From a virus, in the IMG/VR virus record IMGVR_UViG_3300025671_000044, positions 1-64,000 of that record: 64,000 bases of DNA; one strand, written 5' to 3'. Below, one piece after another: positions 6,612-64,000 of this stretch. Made by a program: the position numbers and the translations under genes. The notes under the pieces were generated by a model that was not told the DNA's origin, searched no databases, and was given only the letters and a program-made list of their open reading frames with translations. Numbering within the stretch: the stretch's first letter is position 1; every line of letters starts with the position of its first letter.

Positions 6612-8062
6612 GAAAATACCTTTACGTTATACATATTAGCAAAGTCTTTTGCGTCTGTCAAGTCGTTAACAATTGGTTTTCCTTTGATATTAAGTGATGT
6701 ATTTAATAATATCGGACACCCTGTTTCCTCATACCAACGTTCTAGCAGTTTTCGTATTCCGCTGTCATCTGGTCCAACCGTTTGGACTCTGGATGTTCCG
6801 TCTGCGTGACAGATGGCAGGATACAGGTCTGGATAGGAGCAACTGGAGGTAAACTGCATATATGGATTTGCATATCCTTTAAAGTTATCATGATAGTGTT
6901 CTGCGAGCACAACGGGAGCAAAAGGTCTAAATTTTTGTCTTCGCTTGATTTCGTTGACTCGGTCTTTGATATCGCTGCCTCTAGGGTCAGCAAGTAAACT
7001 CCTATTGCCAAGAGCCCTAGGACCAAACTCTGCCCGGCCATTAGCCACACCAACAATCCCTGTGCTTTTAAGTTCCTGTATAAGTTTTTCAACTGGATAT
7101 TCTCCCTCTATGTTATATCCTGTGTATACATGATCCATAGACATATGTTGTTGTTTGTGTGCTAATACACACCCTATGGCTGATCCAGCATCACCTGGGT
7201 TAGGCATTATCCATACGTTGTCAAAAAACTTGTATGCCAACTGGTTAGCTGAACAATTTAGTGCGCACCCTCCCATGAGAACAAGATTAGAACTCCAACC
7301 TTGACTTTTGGCCGAGTGTAAAATACCGCAAAATAGTTCTTCATACAGCTTCTGGGTAGCAGCAGCAATGTCAAAATAGTCCTGCTCTGTAGTTAGATCA
7401 GGTCGCCACCACATACACCCTCTATGTAAATTGTCTTTGAATGTTATAGGGTCGCCGTTGACGTTGATAAAATCTTCTTTTATTCCGGCGTATAATCTAT
7501 CAGGGTCACCATAGGCTGCCATACCCATGAGAATATATTCGTCTTCCTGTGGCTTTAAGCCAATACGCTGTGTCATAGCACTATACCATAATCCTACACT
7601 GTGTGGATAGGTTTGTGAATATTTCTTTTCTAATTTATCACCCTTGCCATGCCACATAGTAAGTGTGTCAAATTCTCCTATGCTATCAATACAAATAACA
7701 GTAGCATCATTAAAATCGCTAGTATAGTAGCCGGCAGCAGCGTGGCTGAGATGATGATCAATATAAGTAATAGGACAAACAATTCCATAATTTTTCAAAT
7801 ACCTCTTGATATTGTTTTCACGTAGATTAATTCCTTGCCCTGCTCTAAATTGTCTCCATGTTTTCACCAGTGGACGTTCATACCAATACACACGGTCTGG
7901 TTCACCCCAACGTTTAGCATAGTCAATTAATTGACTGTTCAAATGCGCATCATTCTTTACACCACTGAAGCGTTCGCTGTGGCTGGCAAATTCTAATCCG
8001 TCTTTTGTAAATACAGCTAAAGCAGCATCATGGCTGTTAGCACTAATACCCCATTCAATCAT
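6608..8062 (-). CDS. NodU/CmcH-family carbamoyltransferase
   Basis: The 484-residue product has the family's signatures. DHHLSHAAAGYYTS (102-115) is the His-rich metal site of the ASKHA-type domain, with GGCALNCSAN (264-273), EFGPRALGNRS (345-355) and NTSLNIKGKPIV near the end. The family transfers a carbamoyl group from carbamoyl phosphate, via carbamoyl-AMP, to a hydroxyl of a sugar or related acceptor. It is slightly shorter than cellular members. It is embedded by ATGA overlaps between the helicase gene and a small gene, so it is expressed with replication, but its role fits the glycan genes further right. The acceptor is unknown. Confidence 0.92.
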   Translation of the reverse strand: MIEWGISANSHDAALAVFTKDGLEFASHSERFSGVKNDAHLNSQLIDYAKRWGEPDRVYWYERPLVKTWRQFRAGQGINLRENNIKRYLKNYGIVCPITYIDHHLSHAAAGYYTSDFNDATVICIDSIGEFDTLTMWHGKGDKLEKKYSQTYPHSVGLWYSAMTQRIGLKPQEDEYILMGMAAYGDPDRLYAGIKEDFINVNGDPITFKDNLHRGCMWWRPDLTTEQDYFDIAAATQKLYEELFCGILHSAKSQGWSSNLVLMGGCALNCSANQLAYKFFDNVWIMPNPGDAGSAIGCVLAHKQQHMSMDHVYTGYNIEGEYPVEKLIQELKSTGIVGVANGRAEFGPRALGNRSLLADPRGSDIKDRVNEIKRRQKFRPFAPVVLAEHYHDNFKGYANPYMQFTSSCSYPDLYPAICHADGTSRVQTVGPDDSGIRKLLERWYEETGCPILLNTSLNIKGKPIVNDLTDAKDFANMYNVKVFS

Positions 8063-47479: not shown

Positions 47480-47914
47480 ATGAGTCAAATTATTTGTAGT
47501 GGTGCACTATTTTATACATTAGATACACAAAGATTTTTATTCCTACATAGAACACAAAGTAAGAATAAAAACGTGTGGGGTCTTGTTGGTGGAACCAACG
47601 AAGACAAAGAAACTGCTTGGGAAGGTTTACGTAGAGAAATCAGAGAAGAAATAGGCAGTATTCCTGAAATCAAAAAAACAATACCATTAGAAACATTTAT
47701 AAGCAAAGACGAAAACTTTTTATTTCATACATATCTTTGTGTAATTGAAAAAGAATTTATCCCAGTTTTAAATAATGAACACAACGGCTATGCTTGGGTA
47801 TCATTTAACAGTTGGCCAAAGCCTCTGCACAACGGATTAGCAAATACATTACGCAGTAAACAAAACCAACAAAAATTACAAACTGTTTTTGAACTTATTG
47901 AATTGTTCGTATAA
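47480..47914 (+). CDS. Nudix hydrolase
   Basis: The 144-residue product has a complete Nudix box at about 38-60: G, five residues, E, seven residues, REIREEIG. It follows CSGALFYTLDTQRFLFLHR and precedes FHTYLCVIE strands. Nudix enzymes split nucleoside diphosphate derivatives such as nucleotide sugars, ADP-ribose or oxidised nucleotides. In this genome a nucleotide-sugar or NAD-related role is plausible. It is the last of three + strand genes and overlaps the repeat protein's 3' end by 39 bases, tail to tail. Confidence 0.9.
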   Translation: MSQIICSGALFYTLDTQRFLFLHRTQSKNKNVWGLVGGTNEDKETAWEGLRREIREEIGSIPEIKKTIPLETFISKDENFLFHTYLCVIEKEFIPVLNNEHNGYAWVSFNSWPKPLHNGLANTLRSKQNQQKLQTVFELIELFV

Positions 47915-50900
47915 CCAATCAAAGTCATTAATTTTATTTAAATAATCTAAGTTTTTCGCAGCATATTCACCGTATTTTTTGCCTTGATTAGCACCGTTAA
48001 TCGCCGCATTACCAAACGGTTTATCTTTACCTCTTGTGCACCAAGCATTCAATCTAAATTCAGTTTCTTCATCTAGTTGTCCGTCAATTGCACGTGAACT
48101 TAACTTTACACATTCTCTAAAGGCACTGCGCCATGTGCTGAATTCGTCTGTATCAAATTTTGTAATATTAGAAATCTTGTTTACTACTTTGAACAATGGA
48201 CTTATACTTGTTGTCATATCAGGTTTGTTAGTATCCATATTCAATGTTAACTCTCTAGGCAATAGTTTTACAGCACCATAACCATAAATTAGTCCATTTA
48301 TTGGATTTTTAGATTTCCAAACGTGAACGGTGCGTTTGCTATCAGGATCGTAATTAGGAATGTAGTAATCAAAGTTAAAATCATCTACAATTTGTGCATC
48401 AGCATCTACTACATAAAACATCTCAGTTTCAGCAGTTTTTGCAGCCATGATATGTGCTTGATGAATGCCTTCAATGCCATGAACTCTGTGTATTGTTTTG
48501 TCTGGAAATTGATTTAATAATCTTTCAAAGTTTTCATCTGCACTTTTTTCATCTTTGCTAATAAACACAATATCATAAGGTTTTGGTTGACTAGCTGTAA
48601 TATTGTATTCTTTTTTGTTTGCAAAAAACCGCATTTGAATTTCTCGTTCTGTAATATTAGATTTTTTGCTTACTAGTGCTACACCATCCCAAGCATTGCC
48701 ATTTTTAAACACATGATTTGTAGATCTTTCAAAATCTTGGTCATGTGAAAAATACAAGTCAAAATCAAAATTAGGTTCTATATTGACTTCTCTTGGTATA
48801 ATCCAAAACATTTCTGTCTTTGACATGTTATATGCTTTTTTGTAATCGTTATATGTGTTAATTGTAAACCTATCATACACTACAGGGCCACTAGCAACAA
48901 TATCCCATTCTTTACGTCTACCTATAGTTCTATACTCAATTTCTTTTTGTGTTAACGGTGCATGTTTTGTAAACAAAAATAATCCGTTGTATTTTTCTTT
49001 ACCGTTCACGCTATGCTTAAAAGCATGGTTAATTGTTCTATCATAACTGTTGTGTATATCAATATACATGCGCATATCAAAATCTTCACGTATTTTAATA
49101 TTAGGTGTAGTTCCCCAGAACATATTTGACGGTGATTCATCAAATGCATTGAGATAATCATTATATGTTTCAATATTATATACAGGAAAAGGTTTTGGTG
49201 TGCTTGCAACTACATCATGTTTCTTACTGTTAGCATAAAATCTATGCTCAACTTCTTGCTGTGTCACAGGAGCATGTGTTGACATAAGAGCAATGCCATC
49301 CCAAAATTTGCCATTTTTAAACACATGATTTGTATTCCTATCAAAAACATTATCATGAGTAAAATACATTTCAAAATCAAAATCAATATCAACTTCCACA
49401 TCACTAGGTATAGCCCAAAACATTTCAGTTGTTGCACTGTCCATTGCAGACAAGTAGTCAGTGTAGTTGTTTACTACAAATCTTTCGTATTTTACAGGTA
49501 TACTAGCAACCACAGGCCAATTTTTTGCTTTTACTAAATGTCTGTGTTCAATTTCTTTTTCTGTAACAGGTGCGTGTTTGCTGAACAAAAACAAACCGTT
49601 TCTATATCCTTTGTCATTAACTTCATGTAAAAATGTATGGTTAATTTTTCTATCGTATTCATTATCGTGAGAGAAATAATAATCAAAATCAAAAATACTT
49701 GTATCAATGTTATTTGATAATCCCCAGAACATTTCTGTATCGCTTGCTTTTAAAGCATCTAAGTATTGACCATATGTTTCAATAACAAATTCATCATACA
49801 TACATTCTTTACTGGCAACTATATCCCAATGTTTTGCATCAACTATATGTCTATATTCGATTTCTTTTTGTGTTACTGGTTTGTGTTTGCTTAATAAAAA
49901 TACACCATTATACAATTGCATTCCTTTTACTTCATGTATAAATGCATGATTTGTAAATCTATCAAATCTATTGGTATGGTCAAAATGTAAATCAAAATCC
50001 CAGTTATCAGTGTTAATGTTTCTACTTACCGCAAAAAATAATTCAGTAACACTTTTTTCCATTGCTTCTAAATATTCATCGTATGTATCTATAAAGTGTA
50101 TATCATACTGAGCATATCTGCTTGCAACAACTTTCCATTCTTTTACATTTAAAATGTGTCTGTGTTCAATTTCTTTTTCAGTCACAGGAGATTTTTTACT
50201 AAACAAAAAATATCCATTGTAATTTACACTGTCAAATCCTTGATTGAGAAATGCATGATTTATACTTCTATCATATTTGTTATCGTGTGTAAAACTCAAT
50301 GTAAAATCAAAATCTTCGTCATCTTCTAAATTACTACACACTCCCCAGAACATTTCGGTTTTGCTGTGCGTAAACGCATACAAATAATCGCTGTATGTGT
50401 CAATGATAAATTTATCATACTTTACAGGAAAACTTCCTACAACACTATGCTGTTTGACATTAACAAGATGCCTATGCTCAACTTCTTTTTGTGTTAAAGG
50501 GCTGTGTTTACTACATAAAAATAATCCATTATACAAACAACCAGCATGATCATCTACTTTGTGTAAAAATGCATGATTGATATTCCTGTCATATGTATTG
50601 CTATGTTCTAACACAAAATCAAAATCAAAACCACTTGTATTGATATTTCGACTGCTCATCCAAAACATTTCTGTCCTTGAAGTTTTAAGTGCAGTTACAT
50701 ATTCGTCGTAATCGTCAATTTGAAAATATTCATAAGGTGCAGGCACACTCATAATTGTGTTGTGCTCTTTCCTGTTTACAGGATGTCTATGTGATATTTC
50801 ATTTTCAGTTAATTTTATACTTTTAGGAACTAACATAAGCCCATTAAAATTTGAAATACCATCGTGGTCGTGCTCAAACACATGAACTTGATTTCTGTCT

Positions 50901-52366
50901 ATGATATCATGATGACTGATATAAAATTGATCTCTTGCGCTTTGATAATCGTTTATTTGTGGACTAGAAAGCCAAAACATATCTGTTGTAGCAGAACTTT
51001 TTGCATGTATATAATCTTCGTAAGTTTCTACTTCAAAAACATCAAAAGGTTTTGGTATACTATAAACTTCTTCCCATTGTTTCTTCTTAGAATAAAATCT
51101 GTGTTCTACTTCTTTTTTTGATAACTTTGTATTAACATTGTATAATACAACGCCGTCGTAGGTTTTTTTATTTAGAAAAACATGTGTAATATTTCTGTCG
51201 TATTGATTGTGATGTGAAAAATATAAATCTAATTCTTTCACTACATCTACATCACTTGGTATACCCCAAAACATTTCTGTGGTTGTATTTTCCATAGCAC
51301 GTTTGTAGTCAGACCAAGAATTAACTACAAACGTATCAAACTTTTTTGGACGGCTTGCTACCACCTCGTGTTCTTTTTTCACTACAATAAATCTGTGTTC
51401 AAATTCTTTTTTTCCTATAGGACAATGTTTACTGAACAGCATAACACCGTCATAACTTTTGTCATTTAAGAACACATGATTTATATGCCTATCGTATTGA
51501 TTCATATGATCTATATAAAAACTTAGATCAAAGTTTTCTTCAAGTTCAACGTCATTAGGTATCCACCAAAACATATCACCCTCGATATTATCTAATACTT
51601 TTCTGTATTCTTCGTATGAATTAAAATTGTATTGTGGGAATTTTTTTGGTTTACTTGCTACAATGCTTACATCTTTTTTCTCAGCGTAAAATCTGTGCTG
51701 TAATTCGTTAGTTGTGGGATTATAATATTTACAGCCTAAAATGATTCCATCTTTACTACGTGCAGAACCATTGCTGAACACATGAATATACTGTTGACTC
51801 CAATCATCGGGCATATATGAAAATTTAAAAAATTCACTGACTTCAACATCATTTGGCACTAACCAAAACATATCAGTATCTGATTTATTTTGTGCATCGT
51901 AATAATCTTGTGCAATTTCAATGTTTGGAAAACGTTTGATTAATTTTTGATATTCATCGTCGGATTCTTTACCAATAAAAAATATGTTGAAACTTTCTTC
52001 GCCACATAAAACGTCATATTTTGCACAAATATGTTTTTGTTCAATTCTGTGTTCTGTATCAATTTTTGTAGGAACCAGTTTAACTTTGTCCCAACTTATT
52101 ATTCTTTTACTACGTTTATACACATACGGAAAACAATGAATTCCAACTTCTGTAGGTCTAAAATGCCAAGGAAAAGTGCGTAATGTTTCTATATTTTTAT
52201 CTACTATCCATACATAATCATGATCTTGATAATCTTTTACAACAGAATAATCCATTGTATCTTTTGTGTAATGTATAGGATATGAATGTAAAAAATGATT
52301 TTTTAGAACATCTTGTCCGTTGTAAATTTTTTGTCCATAGCGTTCAAATCTATCAAATGCTCTCAT
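47876..52366 (-). CDS. Giant tandem-repeat protein of glycosyltransferase-like units
   Basis: The 1,496-residue product consists mostly of about 13 copies of a unit of roughly 100 residues. Each has TEMFW..., a DFDxYFSHDNxYDRxINHxFLH-type segment, YNGLFLFSKHxPVT, KEIEHRH and VVAS. The last copy (about 1310-1400) keeps MFYVVDADAQI, a GT-A-type DxD, and IYGYGAVKLLPRE. A unique C-terminal domain follows (about 1380-1496), with SISPLFKVVNKIS and STWRSAFRECVKLSS. In the inner copies the DxD becomes IPSDVEV, SSRNIN and the like, so they are probably non-catalytic binding units. It follows a GT2 gene at a 4-base overlap. A single working transferase with a long array of glycan-binding units is my best reading. 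Confidence 0.85.
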   Translation of the reverse strand: MRAFDRFERYGQKIYNGQDVLKNHFLHSYPIHYTKDTMDYSVVKDYQDHDYVWIVDKNIETLRTFPWHFRPTEVGIHCFPYVYKRSKRIISWDKVKLVPTKIDTEHRIEQKHICAKYDVLCGEESFNIFFIGKESDDEYQKLIKRFPNIEIAQDYYDAQNKSDTDMFWLVPNDVEVSEFFKFSYMPDDWSQQYIHVFSNGSARSKDGIILGCKYYNPTTNELQHRFYAEKKDVSIVASKPKKFPQYNFNSYEEYRKVLDNIEGDMFWWIPNDVELEENFDLSFYIDHMNQYDRHINHVFLNDKSYDGVMLFSKHCPIGKKEFEHRFIVVKKEHEVVASRPKKFDTFVVNSWSDYKRAMENTTTEMFWGIPSDVDVVKELDLYFSHHNQYDRNITHVFLNKKTYDGVVLYNVNTKLSKKEVEHRFYSKKKQWEEVYSIPKPFDVFEVETYEDYIHAKSSATTDMFWLSSPQINDYQSARDQFYISHHDIIDRNQVHVFEHDHDGISNFNGLMLVPKSIKLTENEISHRHPVNRKEHNTIMSVPAPYEYFQIDDYDEYVTALKTSRTEMFWMSSRNINTSGFDFDFVLEHSNTYDRNINHAFLHKVDDHAGCLYNGLFLCSKHSPLTQKEVEHRHLVNVKQHSVVGSFPVKYDKFIIDTYSDYLYAFTHSKTEMFWGVCSNLEDDEDFDFTLSFTHDNKYDRSINHAFLNQGFDSVNYNGYFLFSKKSPVTEKEIEHRHILNVKEWKVVASRYAQYDIHFIDTYDEYLEAMEKSVTELFFAVSRNINTDNWDFDLHFDHTNRFDRFTNHAFIHEVKGMQLYNGVFLLSKHKPVTQKEIEYRHIVDAKHWDIVASKECMYDEFVIETYGQYLDALKASDTEMFWGLSNNIDTSIFDFDYYFSHDNEYDRKINHTFLHEVNDKGYRNGLFLFSKHAPVTEKEIEHRHLVKAKNWPVVASIPVKYERFVVNNYTDYLSAMDSATTEMFWAIPSDVEVDIDFDFEMYFTHDNVFDRNTNHVFKNGKFWDGIALMSTHAPVTQQEVEHRFYANSKKHDVVASTPKPFPVYNIETYNDYLNAFDESPSNMFWGTTPNIKIREDFDMRMYIDIHNSYDRTINHAFKHSVNGKEKYNGLFLFTKHAPLTQKEIEYRTIGRRKEWDIVASGPVVYDRFTINTYNDYKKAYNMSKTEMFWIIPREVNIEPNFDFDLYFSHDQDFERSTNHVFKNGNAWDGVALVSKKSNITEREIQMRFFANKKEYNITASQPKPYDIVFISKDEKSADENFERLLNQFPDKTIHRVHGIEGIHQAHIMAAKTAETEMFYVVDADAQIVDDFNFDYYIPNYDPDSKRTVHVWKSKNPINGLIYGYGAVKLLPRELTLNMDTNKPDMTTSISPLFKVVNKISNITKFDTDEFSTWRSAFRECVKLSSRAIDGQLDEETEFRLNAWCTRGKDKPFGNAAINGANQGKKYGEYAAKNLDYLNKINDFDWLYEQFNKFKNSL
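48395..51877 (-). repeat. Coding tandem repeat array, about 12 units of about 300 bp
   Basis: Within the 1,496-residue gene the MFW-type motif recurs about every 100-105 codons, from residue 164 to residue 1316; a more divergent copy lies near residue 52. The repeats are clear in protein but much diverged in DNA, which argues for old duplication and selection on the protein. Borders are approximate. Confidence 0.8.
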
Positions 52367-52938
52367 AATGTAAAACTCTTTGTTCCATAATGTGCTACAT
52401 TATTACTTAATGTAGCGTCTACAAAAATGTCAAATCCTGCATCGTTTACATTTTTGCAAAAGTATATATCTTCACCCATCAACGATTGTGTTGCCTTATA
52501 ATCAACATATTGATAATACGGTTGTTCTAAATATTCATATACTTTAGTGTTTACTAACATACAACCCATTCCTACTGCCCAAACTTTATGTAATCCATTT
52601 GTTTCAGTAAGTCTTTTGTTAAAGTCATTAGAATCTACAAATGCTACGCTTTGATGCGGCGGCATACGTGTGCTATAGGTTGCTGCTACTATTTCTTTAT
52701 CATGCGCTAATAATTTTATTGCTGTGCTTTCAGGAACATGCATGTCGCTGTCAAGCCATAATATATGTGTGGCATTTTTTTCTAATGCTTCTTTTACCAA
52801 CTGATTGCGTTGTTGTGGAATGATGGTTCCTAAGTTAATTAAAATTTCACAATCAATTGTTTTAGATATTTTAGCTAGAGAAAGAGCAAATCCTGCATGA
52901 ACAAGATCTCTTGCCGGCACACATATAGCAAGTTTCAT
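52363..52938 (-). CDS. GT2-like glycosyltransferase
   Basis: The 191-residue product has KLAICVPARDLVHAGFALSL, IIPQQRNQLVKEAL, and HILWLDSDMHVP with DxD at D63-S-D65. VWAVGMGCMLVN and SLMGEDIYFC follow, the GED acting as the acceptor-site ED motif. This is the short GT2/GT-A form common in phages. It overlaps the repeat gene downstream by ATGA, so the two proteins may form one glycosylation module. Confidence 0.83.
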   Translation of the reverse strand: MKLAICVPARDLVHAGFALSLAKISKTIDCEILINLGTIIPQQRNQLVKEALEKNATHILWLDSDMHVPESTAIKLLAHDKEIVAATYSTRMPPHQSVAFVDSNDFNKRLTETNGLHKVWAVGMGCMLVNTKVYEYLEQPYYQYVDYKATQSLMGEDIYFCKNVNDAGFDIFVDATLSNNVAHYGTKSFTL

Positions 52939-53315
52939 TAGGTAATTTTTTCAGAAATTGTATCAGTGTTTAGTGTTGCCTCTGCGGCTACTGTTTGATC
53001 GTTGAGTGTTCTTGCTTTTCCAACTGCTAATGCGACTGCTTCTGTAAAATCTTCTTCTGATAGTGCTGCCATTTCTACCATATTTTCTGGTTGCACTTTT
53101 CCTAAAGCAAGTAGGTCTGCTGCTGCTTTATGTGCAATGACATTGATCCAATGATATCTGTCGTCATCTTCTGGAATATCCATTGCATTAACCATAGCAG
53201 TAGCTTCGTCAAATGTAATTTGATCAAGTTCTAATGCTGCTAATTTTGCATGTTTACGTGCTTTAGTATATTCTTGCGCCAAGTCAATATTCATGACTTC
53301 GTATAAACTTTTCAT
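52938..53315 (-). CDS. Unknown helical protein
   Basis: The 125-residue product is helical and acidic, with KARKHAKLAALELDQITFDEA and YHWINVIAHKAAADLLALG. No membrane segment or named family is seen. It shares one base with the GT2 gene and follows the 54-residue gene, so it belongs to the fibre-proximal unit. AGGAGCATATT lies before the ATG. Confidence 0.65.
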   Translation of the reverse strand: MKSLYEVMNIDLAQEYTKARKHAKLAALELDQITFDEATAMVNAMDIPEDDDRYHWINVIAHKAAADLLALGKVQPENMVEMAALSEEDFTEAVALAVGKARTLNDQTVAAEATLNTDTISEKIT

Positions 53316-53542: not shown

Positions 53543-53571
53543 GGTGTTGCCGGATTATTCCGGCATACACC
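53543..53571 (-). terminator. GC-rich two-part hairpin after the fibre gene
   Basis: GCCGGA (53549-53554) and TCCGGC (53559-53564) pair around TTAT. Outside them GGTGT (53543-53547) pairs with ACACC (53567-53571). The structure starts at the fibre stop codon but has no T run on the - strand. It lies in the leader of the next gene, so it may protect or attenuate that message. Confidence 0.6.
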
Positions 53572-56500
53572 TATTTATCGAGTAGTTTTTTCACCATTTC
53601 TTTCAATTCTGCAATTTCAGCTGCTTGCGCTTCAATCTTAGCATCTTGTTCTTTGATTGCTTCAATAAACAACGGAGCAAGTTTTTCATACTTAACTGTG
53701 ATATAGTTTTCGCCTGATTTACTCTTATACTCTTTTGCTTCGCTATCCCATTCTGTATCAAATGGTGCTTTCGCAATTGCTTGTGGTAACACTGCTTCAA
53801 CTTCTTGTGCAATAACACCAGCATCGTTTTTCATTGTTACTGGATGGAAACCTAAATCATTAACTTCTGCTTTCCAATCAAAGTTTACACCATGTAGAGA
53901 TTTTACTTTATCCAATGCGTTTTCAATTGGAACAATGTTTTCTTTGAGTCGTCTATCAGATGAATAAGCAGTAACTTCGCCTACAGCACTAAGACTACCA
54001 CCCATTTGAGCATTGTTGTTTGTTAAGTTCCAATAAGCTGGCCACTGACTGTTTACCTGTGTCCAACTGGTTGAGTCATCTGCACCACGTAGAATATAGA
54101 ACAAGTCGCTATTGGTATGTAGCATAGCAACATTGTGATCAGTATCACGGAAATATAATGTTGGTGATGTATTTCTGATGTAAATGTTTTGACTTGCTGT
54201 AGCAGTGCTTCGTATAAAGCCTGTGCTGTCAATACCATCGAGTGTATCAGCATCAGAAGCTGTAACACCAGTAATACCACTACCGTCACCTGTAAATGTA
54301 GCGGCTGTTATATTGCCAGTAATGTTGATACTACCTGCGCCGCTGATTGTTCCAGAGAAGCTGTCGTTTGCATCACTGCGTAAGAAACTACCGCTATCTA
54401 CTCCGTCCAATGTATCTGCATCTAGTCCACTTGCAGAGCCATCATTACCAGCATGCCAAACTGTATAATTTGTTCCGCCAACATTGTAAGTTAAACCATT
54501 TACACCACTGTTGATATCAAGATATTCATCAGTTCTATCATTGTAGATACGCATTGCTCCACCATTTACATACTGAATATAACCTCTGCGAGTTCCTGCT
54601 TGATAGAAACTAATGTATGGACTTTGTGTCGAACCTTGTGTTTGCAAACGTAGTTGCTCACTGTTGTTGCGATTTATTGTAAGCAATCCTGTTGTAGTAT
54701 CGTTTTCATCACTGCGTAAGAAACTTGCGCTATCAATGCTGTCTAGGGTAGCAGCATCAACACTAGTTAATCCACTACCATTACCAGTAAATGTGCTTGT
54801 GCCAATGTTGATGTTTCCAAAATTACTGGTAATGCTACCTGCATCAAGTGCACCAGTTCCTGTTAAGTTGCTGTATGTTCCGTCAATACGTGCATTTGGA
54901 ACAGTTCCTGTGCCTAAGTTGCTTGCATTTAGGCTTGTAAGTCCGCTACCGTTACCGTTGATTGTGCCATTTACATATACATCTTTAGCAATGCCAACAC
55001 CACCGTCTACAATAAGAGCACCATTTGTTGAAGCTGTTGATTGTGTTGTATTATCAATGTTAACAACTGTTGAACTGTTAAAGTTAATGCTTACACCATT
55101 GTCTGCACCAATTGTATCCAATGCAATGCTACCAACATTAGTAATGTTATTATCGTTAAAGCTGGTTGCACCTAAACTTACACTACCTGTCGCTGTAAGA
55201 TTATCAGCACCAATATTAATTGAACCAAATCCGCTAGTGATACTACCTGCATCAAGTGCGCCTGTGCCTGTAATATCTAATTGGTGCTGAACAACACTGC
55301 TTGAACTGATTCTACCATCTGGAACAGTTCCGCTTGTCAAATTGCTTGCATTGAGTGCAGTTAAGTTTGTGCCTACACCACTGAAACCATTTGTTCCGCT
55401 ATATGTAAAACTTGTGGTAGTAACAGTTGTGTTAACACCAGGAATACTTAAACTATTGTTTGATGCATTACCAATTTGCATAAAGTTGCTTGTTGTGTTT
55501 GTAGCAGTTTCAATACCTTTACCAATCAAGATATTGTTACTACCCGAAGTAAGTGTTCTACCTGTGCTTGCACCAAGCACTGTGTTATCACTACCTGTAA
55601 CAATCTCAAGAGCTTGATATCCTACACCGGTGTTATCATCACCAGCTGTGCTGTTTGCCATTGTGTCTGCACCAACACTGGTGTTGTTATTACCTGCATT
55701 GGTTCTTTGTTCTTGGCTGTCTGAACCAATAGCAGTGTTATTGTTAGCACTTGTAAGTGCGCTCAGTGCCACATAACCTACAGCAGTGTTTTTATCACCG
55801 CTTAGAGCACCATGTATACTACCACTACCAATACCAGTATTATATTGTGCACCAGTAGTAATACTATCACCATCGCCAAATATTAAGTTGGTTGATTCAG
55901 CTAATGCACCTTGACCAATTCTAAATCCATTTACAGTAATATCGCTTGTAAATGTTTTACCTGCTTGACTAGTTGGCAATCTAGCATCGTTTACAGTTCC
56001 ACTTGACAAGTTAGTTGCATTAAGTGTTGTGAGTCCGCTACCGTTACCGTTAAGTATTCCACCTACGTGTAAGTTTTTAGCAATACCAACACCGCCATCT
56101 ACTATAAGTGCACCATTTGTTGAAGCTGTCGATTGTGTTACATTGTCAATGTTTACAACAGTTGAACTTGCAAAGTTCATACTTGAACCATTGTCTCCGC
56201 TGATTGTATCAAGTGCTATGCTACCTACATTAGTAATATTATTATCACCAAAACTTGTAGCACCTAGTGTAATAGTTCCTGTTGCTGTAAGATTGCTTGT
56301 TCCAATATTAATGTTACCAAAGTTGCTTGTAATACTACCACCGTCAAGTGCGCCAACATTTTGCAAACTACTGTTAATAACATTTGTTCCAAGTGTATTT
56401 GCACTTAGAACTTCTGTGTTATTAATGCGATACACTTTTCCGCTTATGATGTTTACATGCTCACTGAAGTCCCAACTATCGTTAGCATTTGACCATGTAA

Positions 56501-59500
56501 TAGTATGATCTGTTGCGCCTTTAAGTGTAATACCGCCGCCATCTGCTGTAGTATCAGTTGGAGTAGCGACAGTTCCTAATTCAATGTTTTTGTCATCAAT
56601 TTGTAGTGTAGTTGAATTAAGAGTAGTTGTTGTTCCGTTTACAGTTAAGTCACCTGTTACAACAACATCACCAGCTATGTTAGTGTTACCAGTTGCATAT
56701 GCAATAGTAAATTTAGTTAAACTATCTCCAAAACCTAAATCACCAGTTGCACCAATTTGCATACGCTGAGTGCCTGCTGTTAAAAAATCGAGCTCGTCAT
56801 TATCGGCACCAGCACTTGTCTCTGGTCTAATAAGTGTGTCTTGGTCAACGTCTTTAACACCACCTAGTGAACCCCAGTTACTTCCATCGTAACCTTCAAA
56901 TGTGCTGTCGCTTGTATTATAGCGAATTTGACCTTGTGCAGCAGTTACATATATACCTGCTTCACCTGGACGCTGCGCACTTGTTCCTACAGGAACTTTT
57001 ATACCAGTTGTATCTGTGAACTTTGTATATCCAGTTACAGTCATAACACCTTCTGTATCAATACGCATACGCTCTGTAATGGTTTGTAGTGCTTCTCCTG
57101 TAGTGCTTTCTTCGCCAGTTTCAACAATAAAGTCGCCGCCGGTTGCATTACCAGTTCCAATGCCTGGACGTAGCGTCAAAGAACCGCCGCCTATATTTGT
57201 GCCAATGCCGCCTTCGCCTTTAATTAGTGCAGGTAATGGACTTGTTCCGAATTCACCACCACCAATTACAACGTTTTGGTTTTTAATAACAATAGTATTT
57301 TCTTTTGATATTGTTCCAATCTGTGTCACAGCTGGATTAGCGTTTACGTTGTTGTTTGTTCTAATTGTAAAAGAAGTAGCATTTTCAGTTGCACCAATAA
57401 CCGGCCATTGTCCGTCAAGATTTGCAATCCCACTACTTGCAACAATAACTGTATCTCCTACTCTAACACCAAGTGTTAATGGTGTATTTGTAAAAGTAAT
57501 AGTTGTTCCTGTTAAAACACTACCTGTTAAATCTTGGCTTAAAAATACTTCGTCATCTGTGATACCAGTTACAGTTGTGTTAGCTGGAATACTACCACTA
57601 CCGGCCACAGTCATGCCAAATGCAACTTGAGAGGTATCACCAAACAACAATACCTTTTCGCCGTTTGCACTTGCAGAAGAAGTTGATAAATTAATAGCTG
57701 ATAAATTAACAACTACATCTTGAGTGTTAGTTGCTTCATATGTATCAACACTTGTGCTAATATTTCTGCTATCACTGTTTTTACCTATTTTTACATTTTC
57801 AGCATCGCCACCAATTTCGAGTGTAGAAACGTTTTGATTGTAAACTTGGCCTAGTGATGTGCTGCTAGAACTTAGTTTAGCTGATCCAACATCCAAACCT
57901 TCTGCAAGATCAAGTGCTGTGCCCCATTCGGGGGTAACACCATTTGATTTTAAGAATGTGTTAGCTCTACCAATGTTAAGTGTATTCAAACTTGCAGCTG
58001 ATTGTGCATACAAAAGATCACCAATTGCATAAGTTGTGATATTGGTTCCACCTCTATTAACTGGCACAGGACTAGTTAGGTTAGCAGGGTTTAAGAAATA
58101 AGCACTATCCAAGCTGTCCAAGGTTCCTGCATCTACAACACCGTCTTTGATGAAAACTTCACCACTACCGTTTGAGTTAACATCAAATTGGGTTTGTAGG
58201 AATCTACTTGTTCCAAGTGTTGAGAATGTTCCAAGTGGATCGTAGTCAGCGTTAGCTATACCAATGTTTACTGGATCACCGTAGAATTCAGCATTTGAAC
58301 TTGATCCTGTTAAGGTGATTGGGTTATCTGTTGTGTTTGCTTTTTTTAGACTTTGAACAACAGTGTCATATCTGCTATCACCAAATAGAACTGTGTCGCT
58401 ATTAGCAACCCCACTTGAACCAAGTCTACTTGGAGAAATAGTTCCAGAAATAATGTTTTCTGCATCAATATTTGTAGCAGCTAGTGTGTTCCAGTTTGAC
58501 TTAATTCTACTTGAAGTGTTTACAATTTCAGTTACTCTTGTATTACTTGGCGTAATTCTTGCAGCACCTACACCTTTTGTTCCGATGTCTTTTCTGTTTG
58601 TAACAAGTCCGTTAATACTACTCAACGCATCTGAACGTAGTGTGTGTAATGTAAACGAGTTTGTAGTTACTGATCCTACAAAGAATCTTGATCCGTCTAC
58701 AATTTCTTTACCGTCAATGTTTGGAAGAGCGTTAGAAGTAGACCCATCTGTTAATGTGTTAATTCTTATAGCATCAGCTGTTGTAAGTCCGTGGTTTTGA
58801 ACTATAATACTATCGTCTGTTAAGTTAACAGCATGTCTACTAAAATTATGATTGTTGTTTAACGGAGTTGTTAGGAATTCAATTTTATTTAACAAACTGT
58901 AATCTTCGTAGACTTCGATAGTATCGACATCAATGCGTTTAGCATAATACACACTACCATTTAAAAGACCGCCAATAGCAACATTGCCCAATGTATCGTA
59001 TGTAAGCGGATCGCCGTCTAGCAATCCGTGTCCAGCAATAGTAATTCTGTTTGTAGTGTAATCAACACTACCACCACCTGCAGTTGTGCCTGCTAAGAAG
59101 TTCAAGCTAATTACATTGTCAAGTCCTATATCAAATGAATTGTTTACAGCATCAACGTCTTCGATAAAGTCAATACTTGAACTAGATGCAACAAACAATT
59201 CTCCGCCAAGAATATTTACATATATACGTTTTTCTATAGCAGATACATCTATTTCAAAACTACTACCTGTGCCACCTATGTCTGCTGCGTTTGCACTTAA
59301 TCTATCTCCAACAACATACCCTGTGCCACCTCTCCTAAGGTCTACATCGCTTACTGCGCCTGCCGTTACAGTAATATCTGCTTTTGCACCTGATCCAACA
59401 CCTGTTATACTTGTTAAAGAAACATTTTCGTAAATTTTATTACCTTGTGTTGGAGTATACCCGCTACCGCCAGTGATATTTGCGTTGTCTACATTAACAG

Positions 59501-62500
59501 CAACACCGTATCTTTCTTCTGTAACTGCACCTTGTGCATTACCGTCAGCACTTGTTACAACACTGAAAACATTGCCTGTTCTACTAATAGTTGAAACATC
59601 TATACCAATATTAGCAATCGTAAAAGAAGTCGATGTAGGAGTAGATAAAACTTCGCCGTTTACGTTGAATGTCTCGTCTTCAACACATTCGACTCTTACT
59701 TGGTTACCAACATATAATCCATGAGCAGAACTTGTAACAATAGTTTGAATATTACTTGCTCTAGATACACTACTTAGACTTACAATTGTAAAATTATAAT
59801 CAAGAGAAGGATCTAATATCAAATACTGACTGGTGTTGGAACTTTTTAGGAAGTAGTTGTCAATAATAGCAGTTGATGCACCTTTGCTTGTTGGATAAAC
59901 TCCTGAGTCTACACCATCAACAAACAAGTTTAAGTTGTTTGTGATATCCCAAGGATCGCCAACACTGTCGTCTGTTTCGTCCCAAGCAAGTCCTGTTGTT
60001 GCAACTAAAATATTTCCACTGGTGCTAAATGTTCCTTTTGCGTATCCAGTAGCACCAGTTACACCTGGTTGTGTAATAACTGCACCATCTGATGCTGTGA
60101 TATTGCCACTAAGAGTCAATTGGACTTGTTCAAAGTTTTCTGTTCCGATATCACCAGCAGACAAATTAACTGCTGGAATTTCGTCGACTTGTGTTAGTCT
60201 TGAATTATATCCTTCTGTGTTTGTGTTGGTAAACTGACGTGTTGCAGGAATAAGTTCGCCGTTGAGCTGACCATTTGTGTTCAACTGAACAATAGCACCT
60301 GGAACAGCAGCAGTTGACACAGTTTTGTCAACAAAGCCACCTAACCTGTTTGAAATAAAACTTCTTACTGCTAATTGTGTTGAAAGTCTAGCATTACTCG
60401 GGCCGCCAATTTCGTCATCACCCAAGTTCACATCTGTTGAAATTTCTTCAATAGCAACATTAGACAGACTTAGTTTTAGAGCATCTAGTTCGTCCACCTG
60501 AACTTTGTTTCTAAATGTAATGTTACCAGTTCTGTTAAACGCTGTAATAAAGTCACCAACTTTAAAGTCACCAAGTTCGTTTGTTCCTGATGAATAAACT
60601 CGTCCTGGCAATTCTTCGTATTGTTCGTATTCTGCTCTTGTGTTACCACCGTTTTGTGGAAGTGCGTTATAGTCTGTTCCTGAACCAGCATATTCCCAAG
60701 TGTGTGCAGATGAGTTAACAATACTCGGTCTGTGGAACCATATTTGTTTTTCTGGTAGATTGGCAGTATTTGTAACACTGCTACTACCGTCTGTAGCTGT
60801 AATAGAGAATGTTGCTGTGCCTAATCCAGTTTTTGCAGATACTTCATTGATTGCAATAGTTGTATTTGGACTAGGAGAATGGTCTTGTGTAATTGTGCTG
60901 GTTGCATCAAATTGAATTCTCAATACGCTTGATCCTACAGCTACTTCTTCAATACTTACAATAAGTCTACGTTCTTCTGGTTCCCAACTATGCACAAATG
61001 CACTGTTGTTGTTTGCACCTGTTGTTCCTTGAATTGCTCTACCAGGAACAAAATAATAGCTTTCAGATCCTGATTCGAGAATCAATGTTTGATATGTTTG
61101 GTGTGAACTTAAAATTTCTTCAACATAGAATTCTATAATGTCTGTTCTAAAAATATGTGTGCCACTATTTGTAGCATTTGTAAATAGATCTACTGGAAAT
61201 TCTAAGCTGTCATCAAATGTTAAACTGAATGTATTTTCATCTAACACATTAGCATAGTATGTTTGTTCGTCGTTTAAACCACCAATAGACGGATTTCCAT
61301 TGTTATCGTAAATTAATTTTTCGCCGTTTGTAAATCCATGTCCGGTAATAGTAAACACACCTGTGCCTAAATTAATATCTGTGGCCGCATTAAAGTTTGT
61401 TGTAGTAGGAGTTGGAATAAAGCTGTTTGTTATATCGCCTTCACTTGTTACTTCTGCAGGTGATGGAATTTCTTCTGGAGCTCTAATTGCTTCACTTACA
61501 ATATTAAATCTACCTTGGACAAAATCTTCAATAGCAGTTGTAATTCCAGTTTTACCTGTAATCACTGCATTTGTATAAGTAGCAGCTTGTTGGATAGCTG
61601 CAATTGTTTGCAATTCTTCGCCTGCAAATACACTTCTAGTTGAGTCTGCTAGGTTGGCAGTAAAGTAGCTTAAACCTGCACTACGAGAATATCTATTACC
61701 TGTATCCCAAGTGTCTTTTGCTACTGCATCAATAATTAATTTTGTATCACGTAAACATTTGCTTTGATCGTATGTAAAGTTATACCATTTTGCTGCATCA
61801 ATACTTTCGTTAATATAACGTGTGACTCTTTGCGCAATGTTTGCTTGTCCAACTGCGTCTAATCTGATAAAGTCATCTTGTAATGTTTGTGATACACCTA
61901 ATGCATTTAAATCAGGCTCAATTAGAGTTATATCAACTGTGCCATCTTGATCTAAATAGCCAACAATTTCTCCAATTCTTGCTTCAACAAAAGACTCTTC
62001 AGTTACAGTTGCTGGTGTTCCGCTAGTGTCTTGTGTTAAAACGTTTCCTGTTGAAACTGCTACTGCTGTTTCTGTAACAATTTCACCAACAACAATTTTT
62101 AACCTATTGTATGCTGCAATAGTTTCATCTTTTTCACCTGACCCAAATTGTGCATTTGTTCCAACAAAATATTGTATAGCTGCATCTATAGTTTGTAAGT
62201 TACCATTAGTAGATAAGTCATACACAAGTGCATCAATAATCAAACCAACATCATTTTCACATTTTGCTGCGTTGTATGTAAACGTAGTTGAGAATGGAGC
62301 AGTTCCTGCTGAAACTTGACTTGCAATCCATGCAGTAATTTCTTTTTTAATAAATTCTTTGTTTGCAATAAGTTGGTTTCTTGCATTTAATGCATTTGTA
62401 TTAATTGCAGTTGGTAATACTCTAGCGTCTACTAAATCATCTCCAGCAACACTTGCACTACTTCCAGCATCTAATACTTCTACTATTTCGTCCCAAAGTG

Positions 62501-64000
62501 CATCAGATCTTGATTCAAAAGTTGCATCTTGTATAATTTGTGCTGTAAATGTTTTAGCATTTTGGTAAGCATCAATATGTTGCTCTTTTTGAGTAGCAAA
62601 AAGAGTTGGATCAAATCTACCGTTGAAGTAAGTTAATACAGATGAAATAGTTCTAGCATTAGAATTTAATGCAGCGTCATATCTAATAGCATCTACTAAT
62701 AGCCTTGTATCTCTTGCGCATTTTGCTTCGTTATAACTAAATCCTGCGTAGATACTTGGCGAGCCAGCTGCATTAGAAACTTGTAAGTTTACCCAATCAA
62801 CTACATCTTGTGCAATTTCATCTCTTTTATTATCAATTAATAGTTTTGCAAATTTATAACCAGGATCTCTAAAACGCAAAACAAATTCTTCAACTGGAGC
62901 ATCTCGATTTATACCCGTAATAGTAATAGTTTGTTTACCTTCACTAGCACCAGTTGACACAACATGAGCACGGTCAAATTCAAATGCTTTAGGCGAATAG
63001 CCTGAACTTCGTAGCGCATATAAACCAAAGTTTGTAGCAGAGTTGGTAATAGAACAATATCCGCCTGATTGTGTATAAACACCATTGAGTAGGAAAATTT
63101 GGAAACAAGACACGATCTGTGCATAAGCATCGTTAAGTAGTCGCCAACCTGTGCCTCCAAATGAAAGCATGGTATATGCGTTAGCAACCATTGATTTACC
63201 TTGTTCAGGTATAGAACCAATGACTGGATTCTCAGCCTCAATATTGTAACGTGGAACGTTTGGAGATTCAACTAATGCACCGTCAATTTTAGCACCACTA
63301 CCTCCTAAGAACGAAATAATTGAACAGTTCTGTGTATATGGAGAAGTAACAATTGTTGGTTTTGTATTTGGCAAGTTTGTATATTCAGCACGGTCAGTTA
63401 CATCAGTAGCATTTGGATCGTCAAACACTGTAGCGTAATCCCATGTAATCAACGGAACTTGGTTATCATCAACCCCGTCTCTAAATGTAAATTCACCAAA
63501 GTAACATGCGTTACGAACACGTAGCATGTCCAAGTTAGCATTTGCAGGACGGATAATACAACCACGCAAACCGTCACCTTTGATAACAACGTTATCAGGA
63601 ACAATAACTGGGTTATCTTCTGTGTAGTCACCAACAGCAACTTTAATGTTTACTCTAGTTCCGTTGACTAAGCCGCTAGGGTTATAAACTAATGCGGAAG
63701 CAAGTTTACATGCTCTTTTAACAGTTTTTACCGGAGCACTCTGTCCGTCATTAGCGTCATCACCTTGTTCAGCAGAAACGTAGATAACGTTACCACCAAA
63801 TACGTCAGCATCAGCAAATTCTAGTTGTCCGTTACCATCTGTTTTAAGTATTTGTCCAACAGTTCCATTGACAAGAGGCAGAGTCAAATTATAACTATTA
63901 GGCAAGTTGTAAGGTGCTTGAATACTAATACCATCTTCACCAGATGCAATACTTTCACGCCAAGTAATTTTACCAAAATCTTCCATGTCAAGGTCGTCTT
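53571..64000 (-). CDS. Giant tail fibre/baseplate protein with S74 chaperone domain
   Basis: At least 3,471 residues run from a Met at 63986; the frame stays open to the window edge, so the true start may lie outside. The N-terminal part (about 1-400) has VIYVSAEQGDDANDGQSAPV, typical of pectin-lyase-like beta helices. Three copies of KCxxDxxLxIDAxxYD lie near 430-800. Middle domains are Thr/Asn/Gly-rich. About 2500-3200 holds three repeats (LDAGSITSNFGNINIG, FNDNNITNVGSIALDT, GALIVDGGVGIAK) and a YadA-like head (NNTAIGSDS, DNTGVGYQALE). The C-terminus (from about 3330) is an S74 intramolecular chaperone: SSDRRLKENI with Ser-Lys dyad, then GVIAQEVEAVLPQA and a coiled coil. Confidence 0.9.
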   Translation of the reverse strand, partial: DDLDMEDFGKITWRESIASGEDGISIQAPYNLPNSYNLTLPLVNGTVGQILKTDGNGQLEFADADVFGGNVIYVSAEQGDDANDGQSAPVKTVKRACKLASALVYNPSGLVNGTRVNIKVAVGDYTEDNPVIVPDNVVIKGDGLRGCIIRPANANLDMLRVRNACYFGEFTFRDGVDDNQVPLITWDYATVFDDPNATDVTDRAEYTNLPNTKPTIVTSPYTQNCSIISFLGGSGAKIDGALVESPNVPRYNIEAENPVIGSIPEQGKSMVANAYTMLSFGGTGWRLLNDAYAQIVSCFQIFLLNGVYTQSGGYCSITNSATNFGLYALRSSGYSPKAFEFDRAHVVSTGASEGKQTITITGINRDAPVEEFVLRFRDPGYKFAKLLIDNKRDEIAQDVVDWVNLQVSNAAGSPSIYAGFSYNEAKCARDTRLLVDAIRYDAALNSNARTISSVLTYFNGRFDPTLFATQKEQHIDAYQNAKTFTAQIIQDATFESRSDALWDEIVEVLDAGSSASVAGDDLVDARVLPTAINTNALNARNQLIANKEFIKKEITAWIASQVSAGTAPFSTTFTYNAAKCENDVGLIIDALVYDLSTNGNLQTIDAAIQYFVGTNAQFGSGEKDETIAAYNRLKIVVGEIVTETAVAVSTGNVLTQDTSGTPATVTEESFVEARIGEIVGYLDQDGTVDITLIEPDLNALGVSQTLQDDFIRLDAVGQANIAQRVTRYINESIDAAKWYNFTYDQSKCLRDTKLIIDAVAKDTWDTGNRYSRSAGLSYFTANLADSTRSVFAGEELQTIAAIQQAATYTNAVITGKTGITTAIEDFVQGRFNIVSEAIRAPEEIPSPAEVTSEGDITNSFIPTPTTTNFNAATDINLGTGVFTITGHGFTNGEKLIYDNNGNPSIGGLNDEQTYYANVLDENTFSLTFDDSLEFPVDLFTNATNSGTHIFRTDIIEFYVEEILSSHQTYQTLILESGSESYYFVPGRAIQGTTGANNNSAFVHSWEPEERRLIVSIEEVAVGSSVLRIQFDATSTITQDHSPSPNTTIAINEVSAKTGLGTATFSITATDGSSSVTNTANLPEKQIWFHRPSIVNSSAHTWEYAGSGTDYNALPQNGGNTRAEYEQYEELPGRVYSSGTNELGDFKVGDFITAFNRTGNITFRNKVQVDELDALKLSLSNVAIEEISTDVNLGDDEIGGPSNARLSTQLAVRSFISNRLGGFVDKTVSTAAVPGAIVQLNTNGQLNGELIPATRQFTNTNTEGYNSRLTQVDEIPAVNLSAGDIGTENFEQVQLTLSGNITASDGAVITQPGVTGATGYAKGTFSTSGNILVATTGLAWDETDDSVGDPWDITNNLNLFVDGVDSGVYPTSKGASTAIIDNYFLKSSNTSQYLILDPSLDYNFTIVSLSSVSRASNIQTIVTSSAHGLYVGNQVRVECVEDETFNVNGEVLSTPTSTSFTIANIGIDVSTISRTGNVFSVVTSADGNAQGAVTEERYGVAVNVDNANITGGSGYTPTQGNKIYENVSLTSITGVGSGAKADITVTAGAVSDVDLRRGGTGYVVGDRLSANAADIGGTGSSFEIDVSAIEKRIYVNILGGELFVASSSSIDFIEDVDAVNNSFDIGLDNVISLNFLAGTTAGGGSVDYTTNRITIAGHGLLDGDPLTYDTLGNVAIGGLLNGSVYYAKRIDVDTIEVYEDYSLLNKIEFLTTPLNNNHNFSRHAVNLTDDSIIVQNHGLTTADAIRINTLTDGSTSNALPNIDGKEIVDGSRFFVGSVTTNSFTLHTLRSDALSSINGLVTNRKDIGTKGVGAARITPSNTRVTEIVNTSSRIKSNWNTLAATNIDAENIISGTISPSRLGSSGVANSDTVLFGDSRYDTVVQSLKKANTTDNPITLTGSSSNAEFYGDPVNIGIANADYDPLGTFSTLGTSRFLQTQFDVNSNGSGEVFIKDGVVDAGTLDSLDSAYFLNPANLTSPVPVNRGGTNITTYAIGDLLYAQSAASLNTLNIGRANTFLKSNGVTPEWGTALDLAEGLDVGSAKLSSSSTSLGQVYNQNVSTLEIGGDAENVKIGKNSDSRNISTSVDTYEATNTQDVVVNLSAINLSTSSASANGEKVLLFGDTSQVAFGMTVAGSGSIPANTTVTGITDDEVFLSQDLTGSVLTGTTITFTNTPLTLGVRVGDTVIVASSGIANLDGQWPVIGATENATSFTIRTNNNVNANPAVTQIGTISKENTIVIKNQNVVIGGGEFGTSPLPALIKGEGGIGTNIGGGSLTLRPGIGTGNATGGDFIVETGEESTTGEALQTITERMRIDTEGVMTVTGYTKFTDTTGIKVPVGTSAQRPGEAGIYVTAAQGQIRYNTSDSTFEGYDGSNWGSLGGVKDVDQDTLIRPETSAGADNDELDFLTAGTQRMQIGATGDLGFGDSLTKFTIAYATGNTNIAGDVVVTGDLTVNGTTTTLNSTTLQIDDKNIELGTVATPTDTTADGGGITLKGATDHTITWSNANDSWDFSEHVNIISGKVYRINNTEVLSANTLGTNVINSSLQNVGALDGGSITSNFGNINIGTSNLTATGTITLGATSFGDNNITNVGSIALDTISGDNGSSMNFASSTVVNIDNVTQSTASTNGALIVDGGVGIAKNLHVGGILNGNGSGLTTLNATNLSSGTVNDARLPTSQAGKTFTSDITVNGFRIGQGALAESTNLIFGDGDSITTGAQYNTGIGSGSIHGALSGDKNTAVGYVALSALTSANNNTAIGSDSQEQRTNAGNNNTSVGADTMANSTAGDDNTGVGYQALEIVTGSDNTVLGASTGRTLTSGSNNILIGKGIETATNTTSNFMQIGNASNNSLSIPGVNTTVTTTSFTYSGTNGFSGVGTNLTALNASNLTSGTVPDGRISSSSVVQHQLDITGTGALDAGSITSGFGSINIGADNLTATGSVSLGATSFNDNNITNVGSIALDTIGADNGVSINFNSSTVVNIDNTTQSTASTNGALIVDGGVGIAKDVYVNGTINGNGSGLTSLNASNLGTGTVPNARIDGTYSNLTGTGALDAGSITSNFGNINIGTSTFTGNGSGLTSVDAATLDSIDSASFLRSDENDTTTGLLTINRNNSEQLRLQTQGSTQSPYISFYQAGTRRGYIQYVNGGAMRIYNDRTDEYLDINSGVNGLTYNVGGTNYTVWHAGNDGSASGLDADTLDGVDSGSFLRSDANDSFSGTISGAGSINITGNITAATFTGDGSGITGVTASDADTLDGIDSTGFIRSTATASQNIYIRNTSPTLYFRDTDHNVAMLHTNSDLFYILRGADDSTSWTQVNSQWPAYWNLTNNNAQMGGSLSAVGEVTAYSSDRRLKENIVPIENALDKVKSLHGVNFDWKAEVNDLGFHPVTMKNDAGVIAQEVEAVLPQAIAKAPFDTEWDSEAKEYKSKSGENYITVKYEKLAPLFIEAIKEQDAKIEAQAAEIAELKEMVKKLLDK
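53572..53579 (-). promoter_or_regulatory. Late promoter-like GATAAATA inside the fibre stop
   Basis: The last codons GAT AAA TAG of the fibre gene spell GATAAATA (53579-53572). It would serve the 54-residue gene 77 bases away, placing the hairpin 53543-53571 at the very 5' end of its message. Confidence 0.45.

Follow-up and report, generated by a model that had tools for sequence, protein, structure and literature searches.

What use does a phage have for a protein in which a glycosyltransferase-like unit recurs about 13 times, with an intact DxD motif in the last copy only? The question was raised by an array glycosyltransferase gene at 47876–52366 (minus strand, ATG start; 1,496 aa, 13 units) in a 64,000-nucleotide stretch of viral DNA, here called the window. 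The source record is a 97.8-kb virus contig. It comes from an uncultured large aquatic phage of the T4 superfamily, whose terminase is 53% identical to that of PA5oct-like jumbo phages. An assembly artefact is ruled out by copies that are 99.9–100% identical in three other metagenome datasets (L002, L006, and L007).

To locate the units, we built a profile from 149 inner units taken from phages outside the window's own clade. This profile found all 13 non-overlapping units, from aa 29–116 to aa 1307–1373, with i-E values between 1.7e-10 and 1.7e-34; 500 shuffled controls scored 5.8 bits at best. The original prediction of about 13 units thus becomes exactly 13. The spacing is 98–105 residues for units 2–12 and 130 residues ahead of the last unit. 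The identity between the window's units is only 11–58%.

All units lie on the minus strand and are given here with the motif at the DxD site. Unit 1 (aa 26–116, 52019–52291; DKN, within VDKN) is a divergent N-terminal cap, which gives the i-E of 1.7e-10 and is conserved in A3. Unit 2 (aa 117–231, 51674–52018; PND) is an inner unit recognized by its profile match; it retains the beta1–alpha1 start and thus helix 1. Units 3–12 were recognized by motif and profile match and units 9–12 also by the AlphaFold model. Units 3 (aa 232–330, 51377–51673; PND), 4 (aa 331–428, 51083–51376; PSD), and 10 (aa 948–1047, 49226–49525; PSD) are of the PxD type. Units 6 (aa 533–637, 50456–50770; SRN), 8 (aa 742–844, 49835–50143; SRN), and 9 (aa 845–947, 49526–49834; SNN) are of the SxN type. 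The remaining motifs are SPQ in unit 5 (aa 429–532, 50771–51082), CSN in unit 7 (aa 638–741, 50144–50455), TPN in unit 11 (aa 1048–1151, 48914–49225), and PRE in unit 12 (aa 1152–1251, 48614–48913). Unit 13 (aa 1252–1385, 48212–48613) alone among the 13 sites reads DAD, within VDADA, as had been claimed. Its DxD motif, D1321-A-D1323 (48398–48406), lies at the end of the predicted strand 1316–1321.

Unit 13 is the first half of a catalytic domain. Together with the last ~111 residues (aa 1386–1496, 47879–48211, minus strand) it makes up one complete GT-A-type domain of ~235 aa. These last residues had been taken for a unique C-terminal domain; they are instead the second half of the glycosyltransferase, which is present in every stand-alone ~230-aa member. 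The stand-alone counterparts in other phages are proteins of 226–250 aa, and they carry the same invariant residues without any array. The catalytic domain can therefore exist without the units that precede it here.

The DxD motif is kept in 88 of 88 distinct terminal units across relatives and in all 45 distinct units of a ~300-aa paralogue. Besides DxD, about 46 further columns of the terminal domain are invariant across divergent phages. In alignment A1, E12, H44, D60/D62 (DxD), NPxNxL, YG.G..KL.P, RECxKL, and LNKINDFDW are invariant; the last two motifs belong to the second half. The features of the GT-A core include an xED catalytic base, a G-loop, and a C-His (PMC7185993). The invariant E, D, H, and G in A1 are positions of a sequence alignment and not of a structure-based alignment to known GT-A enzymes. 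The terminal unit has no sequence match to a named glycosyltransferase family in Pfam, PHROG, NCBIfam, or PDB sequences, and it is thus classed by fold and motif only. On the predicted model, the terminal domain is a GT-A-type glycosyltransferase, and we infer that it is catalytically active.

The inner units have a different anatomy. They are half-domains of ~100 aa without the second half, without donor or catalytic residues, and mostly without helix 1. Units 3–12 correspond to the first half of the domain minus helix 1. Their order is a short strand, a helix, the strand leading to the DxD site, two strands, a short helix, and a long strand; this long closing strand runs into the following unit. 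Across relatives, DxD is found in at most 6 of 259 distinct inner units, an upper figure since a few of these may be partial paralogue units; none of the window's twelve has it. The position of the first Asp is occupied by P, W, S, or T, and the second is mostly D or N. Other invariants of the catalytic domain are also lost from the inner units (the H of the AH pair, NP, YGxG, K, and P). A separate set of residues is conserved in the inner units: His (95%), Glu (95%), Gly (95%), Leu (99%), and Arg (86%).

A profile of inner units only, with catalytic units excluded, matches the catalytic profile with a probability of 98.4 and E of 6e-15, spanning the DxD site. The unit-only profile also matches a stand-alone member (L018) with an i-E of 8e-12. 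By these profile comparisons the inner units are homologous to the catalytic domain. The earlier description of the units as glycosyltransferase-like therefore holds as far as homology and GT-A likeness go; the inner ones are truncated half-domains and not whole glycosyltransferases. Motifs, AlphaFold model, and unit profile all support a single catalytic-type unit at the C-terminus preceded by degenerate relatives. The dN/dS ratio, calculated against L003 and L004, is 0.02–0.22 in every unit, which is of the same order as in the catalytic unit. The inner units are thus maintained by purifying selection and are not decaying, and a decaying pseudogene segment is ruled out.

Structures were predicted for both ends of the protein. 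The AlphaFold model of residues 844–1496 (43-row alignment) has a mean pLDDT of 90.2 and a pTM of 0.70. Foldseek against the PDB gave 80 matches at E<=1e-3 for this model of units 9–13. The matches listed are glycosyltransferases, among them WrtF, K4CP, PcManGT, RmlT, ppGalNAc-T, and SunS, with a probability of up to 1.00 and E down to 1.4e-5. The model of residues 1–431, which holds units 1–4 and no catalytic unit, has a pLDDT of 87.3 and a pTM of 0.72. Its top matches are mostly GT-A enzymes, namely K4CP, majastridin, the PBCV-1 capsid glycosyltransferase, and LH3/ColGalT1; they are weak, with a best E of 5e-3 and a probability of up to 0.93. The GT-A fold that had been expected of the units is thus predicted for the terminal unit and, by Foldseek, weakly for the inner ones.

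The family is found mainly in uncultured viruses, with more than 580 matches in their contigs. The only bacterial matches are two contigs of metagenome-assembled genomes, L116 and L117 (Neomarinimicrobiota, 335 kb, and Neisseriaceae, 13 kb). These members may be prophage, misbinned phage, or host genes. No family match was found in 50,697 phage records with three queries (E limits of 1e-5, 0.1, and 1e-3), nor did the ~300-aa paralogue as a query match named phage records. Control proteins from the same phage do match PA5oct-like and T4-like phages in those records. The array protein has no match in Pfam, PHROGs, NCBIfam, or PDB sequences. A literature search for tandem or degenerate glycosyltransferase arrays found nothing relevant.

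Variation in copy number between related phages had been proposed as a check, and it is present. Complete proteins carry 1, 2, 3, 4, 5, 6, 7, 9, 11, 13, or 17 units, that is, 0–16 inner units. On a tree of the catalytic domain the unit number changed at least 24 times, an approximate count from a quick tree with many open forks, in which truncated proteins were omitted and the paralogue fusion was treated as its own state. The longest array (L053:4114–9681) has 1,855 aa and 17 units of three types in repeating sets. Its units 4, 11, and 14 are 84–92% identical; judged from these unit sequences, this is a recent block duplication of three-unit sets. These units support the proposed origin by duplication, in tandem or in blocks. 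The window's 13 units pair one-to-one with those of L037 at 60–76% identity, so the unit number is stable between near relatives. A second array lineage (L017 and L132–L138) has 9–13 units, and its inner units are less decayed; some of those in the L017 lineage still have DPD and NPxxxxxYxYGG. One array protein (L058:7297–10644) has an additional C-terminal extension of ~230 aa past the catalytic domain.

The array gene is the last of a series of genes on the minus strand. The gene directly upstream (52363–52938) encodes a 191-aa GT-A-type glycosyltransferase (Pfam Anp1, 4.5e-7; phrog_1574), and the same neighbour is present in 32 loci. It overlaps the array gene by 4 nt (ATGA), in agreement with the overlap noted originally. 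It is preceded by a 125-aa conserved neighbour (52938–53315; cluster c14, assigned by phrog_1409 at 5.7e-9 and synteny) and by a 3,471-aa putative tail fibre in the same direction (53571–63986), with a C-terminal chaperone-like end recognized by eye. One member of fibre cluster c3 matches virion structural families. The order of the window-type slot is a fibre-type gene, a gene of ~125–150 aa, a glycosyltransferase of ~200 aa, and the array. Past the array, on the opposite strand, are genes for NUDIX, a tail sheath stabiliser, and a virion protein. About 40 loci share the NUDIX neighbour; in the window its gene (47480–47914, plus strand) and the array gene have a convergent 3′ overlap of 39 nt (47876–47914).

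The window-type slot carries 2 (L032), 5, 7, 11, or 13 units. Its fibre-type gene encodes about 2,900–3,900 aa in most records and is shorter in L032. We considered the array as a ruler for tail-fibre length, but the few complete cases show no such relation (11 units with 3,924 aa, 7 with 3,577 aa, and 5 with 3,055 aa). Self-BLAST at 1e-5 found no self-repeats matching the unit number in the 3,471-aa fibre. By eye, and below BLAST detection, this protein has three stretches of ~100 aa with a similar YNxxKCxxDxxLxxDA motif.

In a second setting, context B (L009–L016 and many of L053–L117), the ~300-aa DxD paralogue lies directly upstream of an array or a stand-alone gene, and several radical-SAM genes lie downstream. 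In L015, L082, L103, and L117 the paralogue and the catalytic domain form one fused protein. A UDP-glucose dehydrogenase is encoded near some family members. Elsewhere in the window, 6608–8062 encodes a NodU/Nol-like carbamoyltransferase (phrog_1601, 6e-99), a possible sugar-modifying gene of the same phage.

Our best reading is that the array protein represents a glycosyltransferase family not described before. In this family, a single active GT-A-type domain would be joined to an N-terminal acceptor-binding arm of pseudo-glycosyltransferase units, with neighbouring tail-fibre or virion proteins or a host surface glycan as the most likely acceptor. We put the probability of this reading at about 0.5. 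The first half of the domain would have been copied by tandem and block duplication into inner half-domains, which would have lost donor binding and catalysis and been retained as an extended arm. The arm would most likely hold a long or repetitive acceptor close to the sole active site, allowing modification at several places, and units added or lost between phages would retune its length. One active glycosyltransferase with an arm is the simplest account because the active site is invariant in the last unit and absent elsewhere, because all units are strongly constrained, because array-less members exist, and because the length changes often. There is precedent for such an arm in LH3, whose dead GT-A domain AC has a proposed role in substrate recognition (PMC6082870). 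Glycosylated virions are known from mycobacteriophages (cited in PMC12619734). The position of the window-type slot closely downstream of fibre-type genes counts for this reading. Counting against it are the lack of a relation between unit number and fibre length in the small set of complete cases, the weak Foldseek support for the inner units alone, and the radical-SAM neighbours in context B, which suggest other chemistry.

A further point against it is that the loss of DxD need not in itself mean inactivity: GT14 and prokaryotic GT6 lost the motif, and some GT-A families are active despite its loss (PMC7185993). The inner units could then be metal-independent active transferases or donor-binding stores, a reading to which the frequent retention of the second Asp/Asn lends something. 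It is very improbable, however, as ~100 aa compare with a GT-A core of 231 positions (PMC7185993), the C-terminal half is absent, helix 1 is absent from units 3–12, and the remaining invariant site residues are lost. None of units 1–12 has the complete ~231-position core with a DxD. Given the missing half-domain and the loss of other site residues, the inner units are likely inactive. A virion-attached, multivalent glycan-binding (adhesin-like) protein, with the terminal domain as a relic or a lectin-like binding tip that transfers nothing, would explain the gene's place next to giant fibre genes in the tail module, the frequent change of repeat number, as in binding proteins, and the conserved aromatic and polar residues of the inner units. 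We nevertheless regard it as unlikely, for the invariance of DxD and the other ~46 columns, alike in array-less members, speaks more for an enzyme than for a tip.

The acceptor is the other point on which readings differ. Remodelling of a host envelope glycan, for receptor masking or superinfection exclusion, would employ the same arm mechanism, binding a polymeric acceptor chain, and differs from the preferred reading by committing to a host acceptor. Glycosyltransferases do lie beside tail fibres in the host-recognition clusters of marine myophages, and have been proposed to change the surface of the host (PMC7029224), and the UDP-glucose dehydrogenase near some members fits as well. Pfam and PHROGs recognized no envelope or lipid-carrier gene beside the window copy, and a strictly host-directed enzyme seems unlikely. 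Glycosylation of phage DNA at hypermodified bases, with the inner units as a DNA-binding arm, is improbable. DNA-modifying viral glycosyltransferases are known (cited in PMC12619734), and a long arm could track a polymer, but the gene is located in the tail module, away from replication genes, and the 97.8-kb record, possibly a fragment, has no gene of the thymidylate synthase/hydroxymethylase type. Between a fibre and a host-surface acceptor, the present data favour neither. As for the arm in our preferred reading, we suggest tentatively, as a possibility below even odds, that half a GT-A fold was turned into a solenoid-like recognition repeat, whose often-reset length would deliver one active site along acceptors that differ in length or spacing. 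This suggestion takes in both array lineages, the window type and the L017 type, which differ in unit type.

Some known proteins share parts of this design. Human LH3/PLOD3 (PMC6082870) likewise joins an active GT-A domain to a catalytically dead, GT-A-like accessory domain, AC. It has one full-size pseudo-domain, compared with 0–16 truncated units here; its domain order is reversed and it is fused to a hydroxylase. The array ORF has no sequence match to the LH3 type, and Pfam recognized no additional domain in it. The E. coli K4 chondroitin polymerase K4CP (PDB 2z86/2z87) is likewise a chain of GT-A domains. It is the best Foldseek match for the model of units 1–4 and one of the top matches for the model of units 9–13. 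Both of its domains are full-size and active, and unlike the array protein it has no repeat array. Viral structural neighbours are the PBCV-1 capsid glycosyltransferase (PDB 2p72/2p73), whose entry names the major capsid protein as its substrate, and the mycobacteriophage Che8 glycosyltransferase (Q855A2); these have no array and resemble our protein at the level of the fold only. Two proteins of uncultured Caudovirales in BFVD, A0A6J5LK21 (804 aa) and A0A6J5L5L5 (1,076 aa), match the entire 653-aa model with E of 8e-34 and 2e-32, and from this structural match they probably have the same design. They are 17–18% identical to the array protein, and their entries read "uncharacterized protein" with no description of the architecture.

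Pseudoenzyme domains usually occur once or twice beside an active relative. In this family, maintained arrays of pseudo-domains reach 16 inner units. Multidomain glycosyltransferases with pseudo-glycosyltransferase domains are already known, and the new element is the array and its variation in length. With 0–16 inner units in the family, and 2, 5, 7, 11, and 13 units in total in one slot, it offers a natural length series for testing pseudo-glycosyltransferase domains. The finding points to an undescribed sugar modification tied to phage tail-fibre gene clusters. If the solenoid suggestion is true, the array would be a modular, reach-setting arm built from a dead enzyme.
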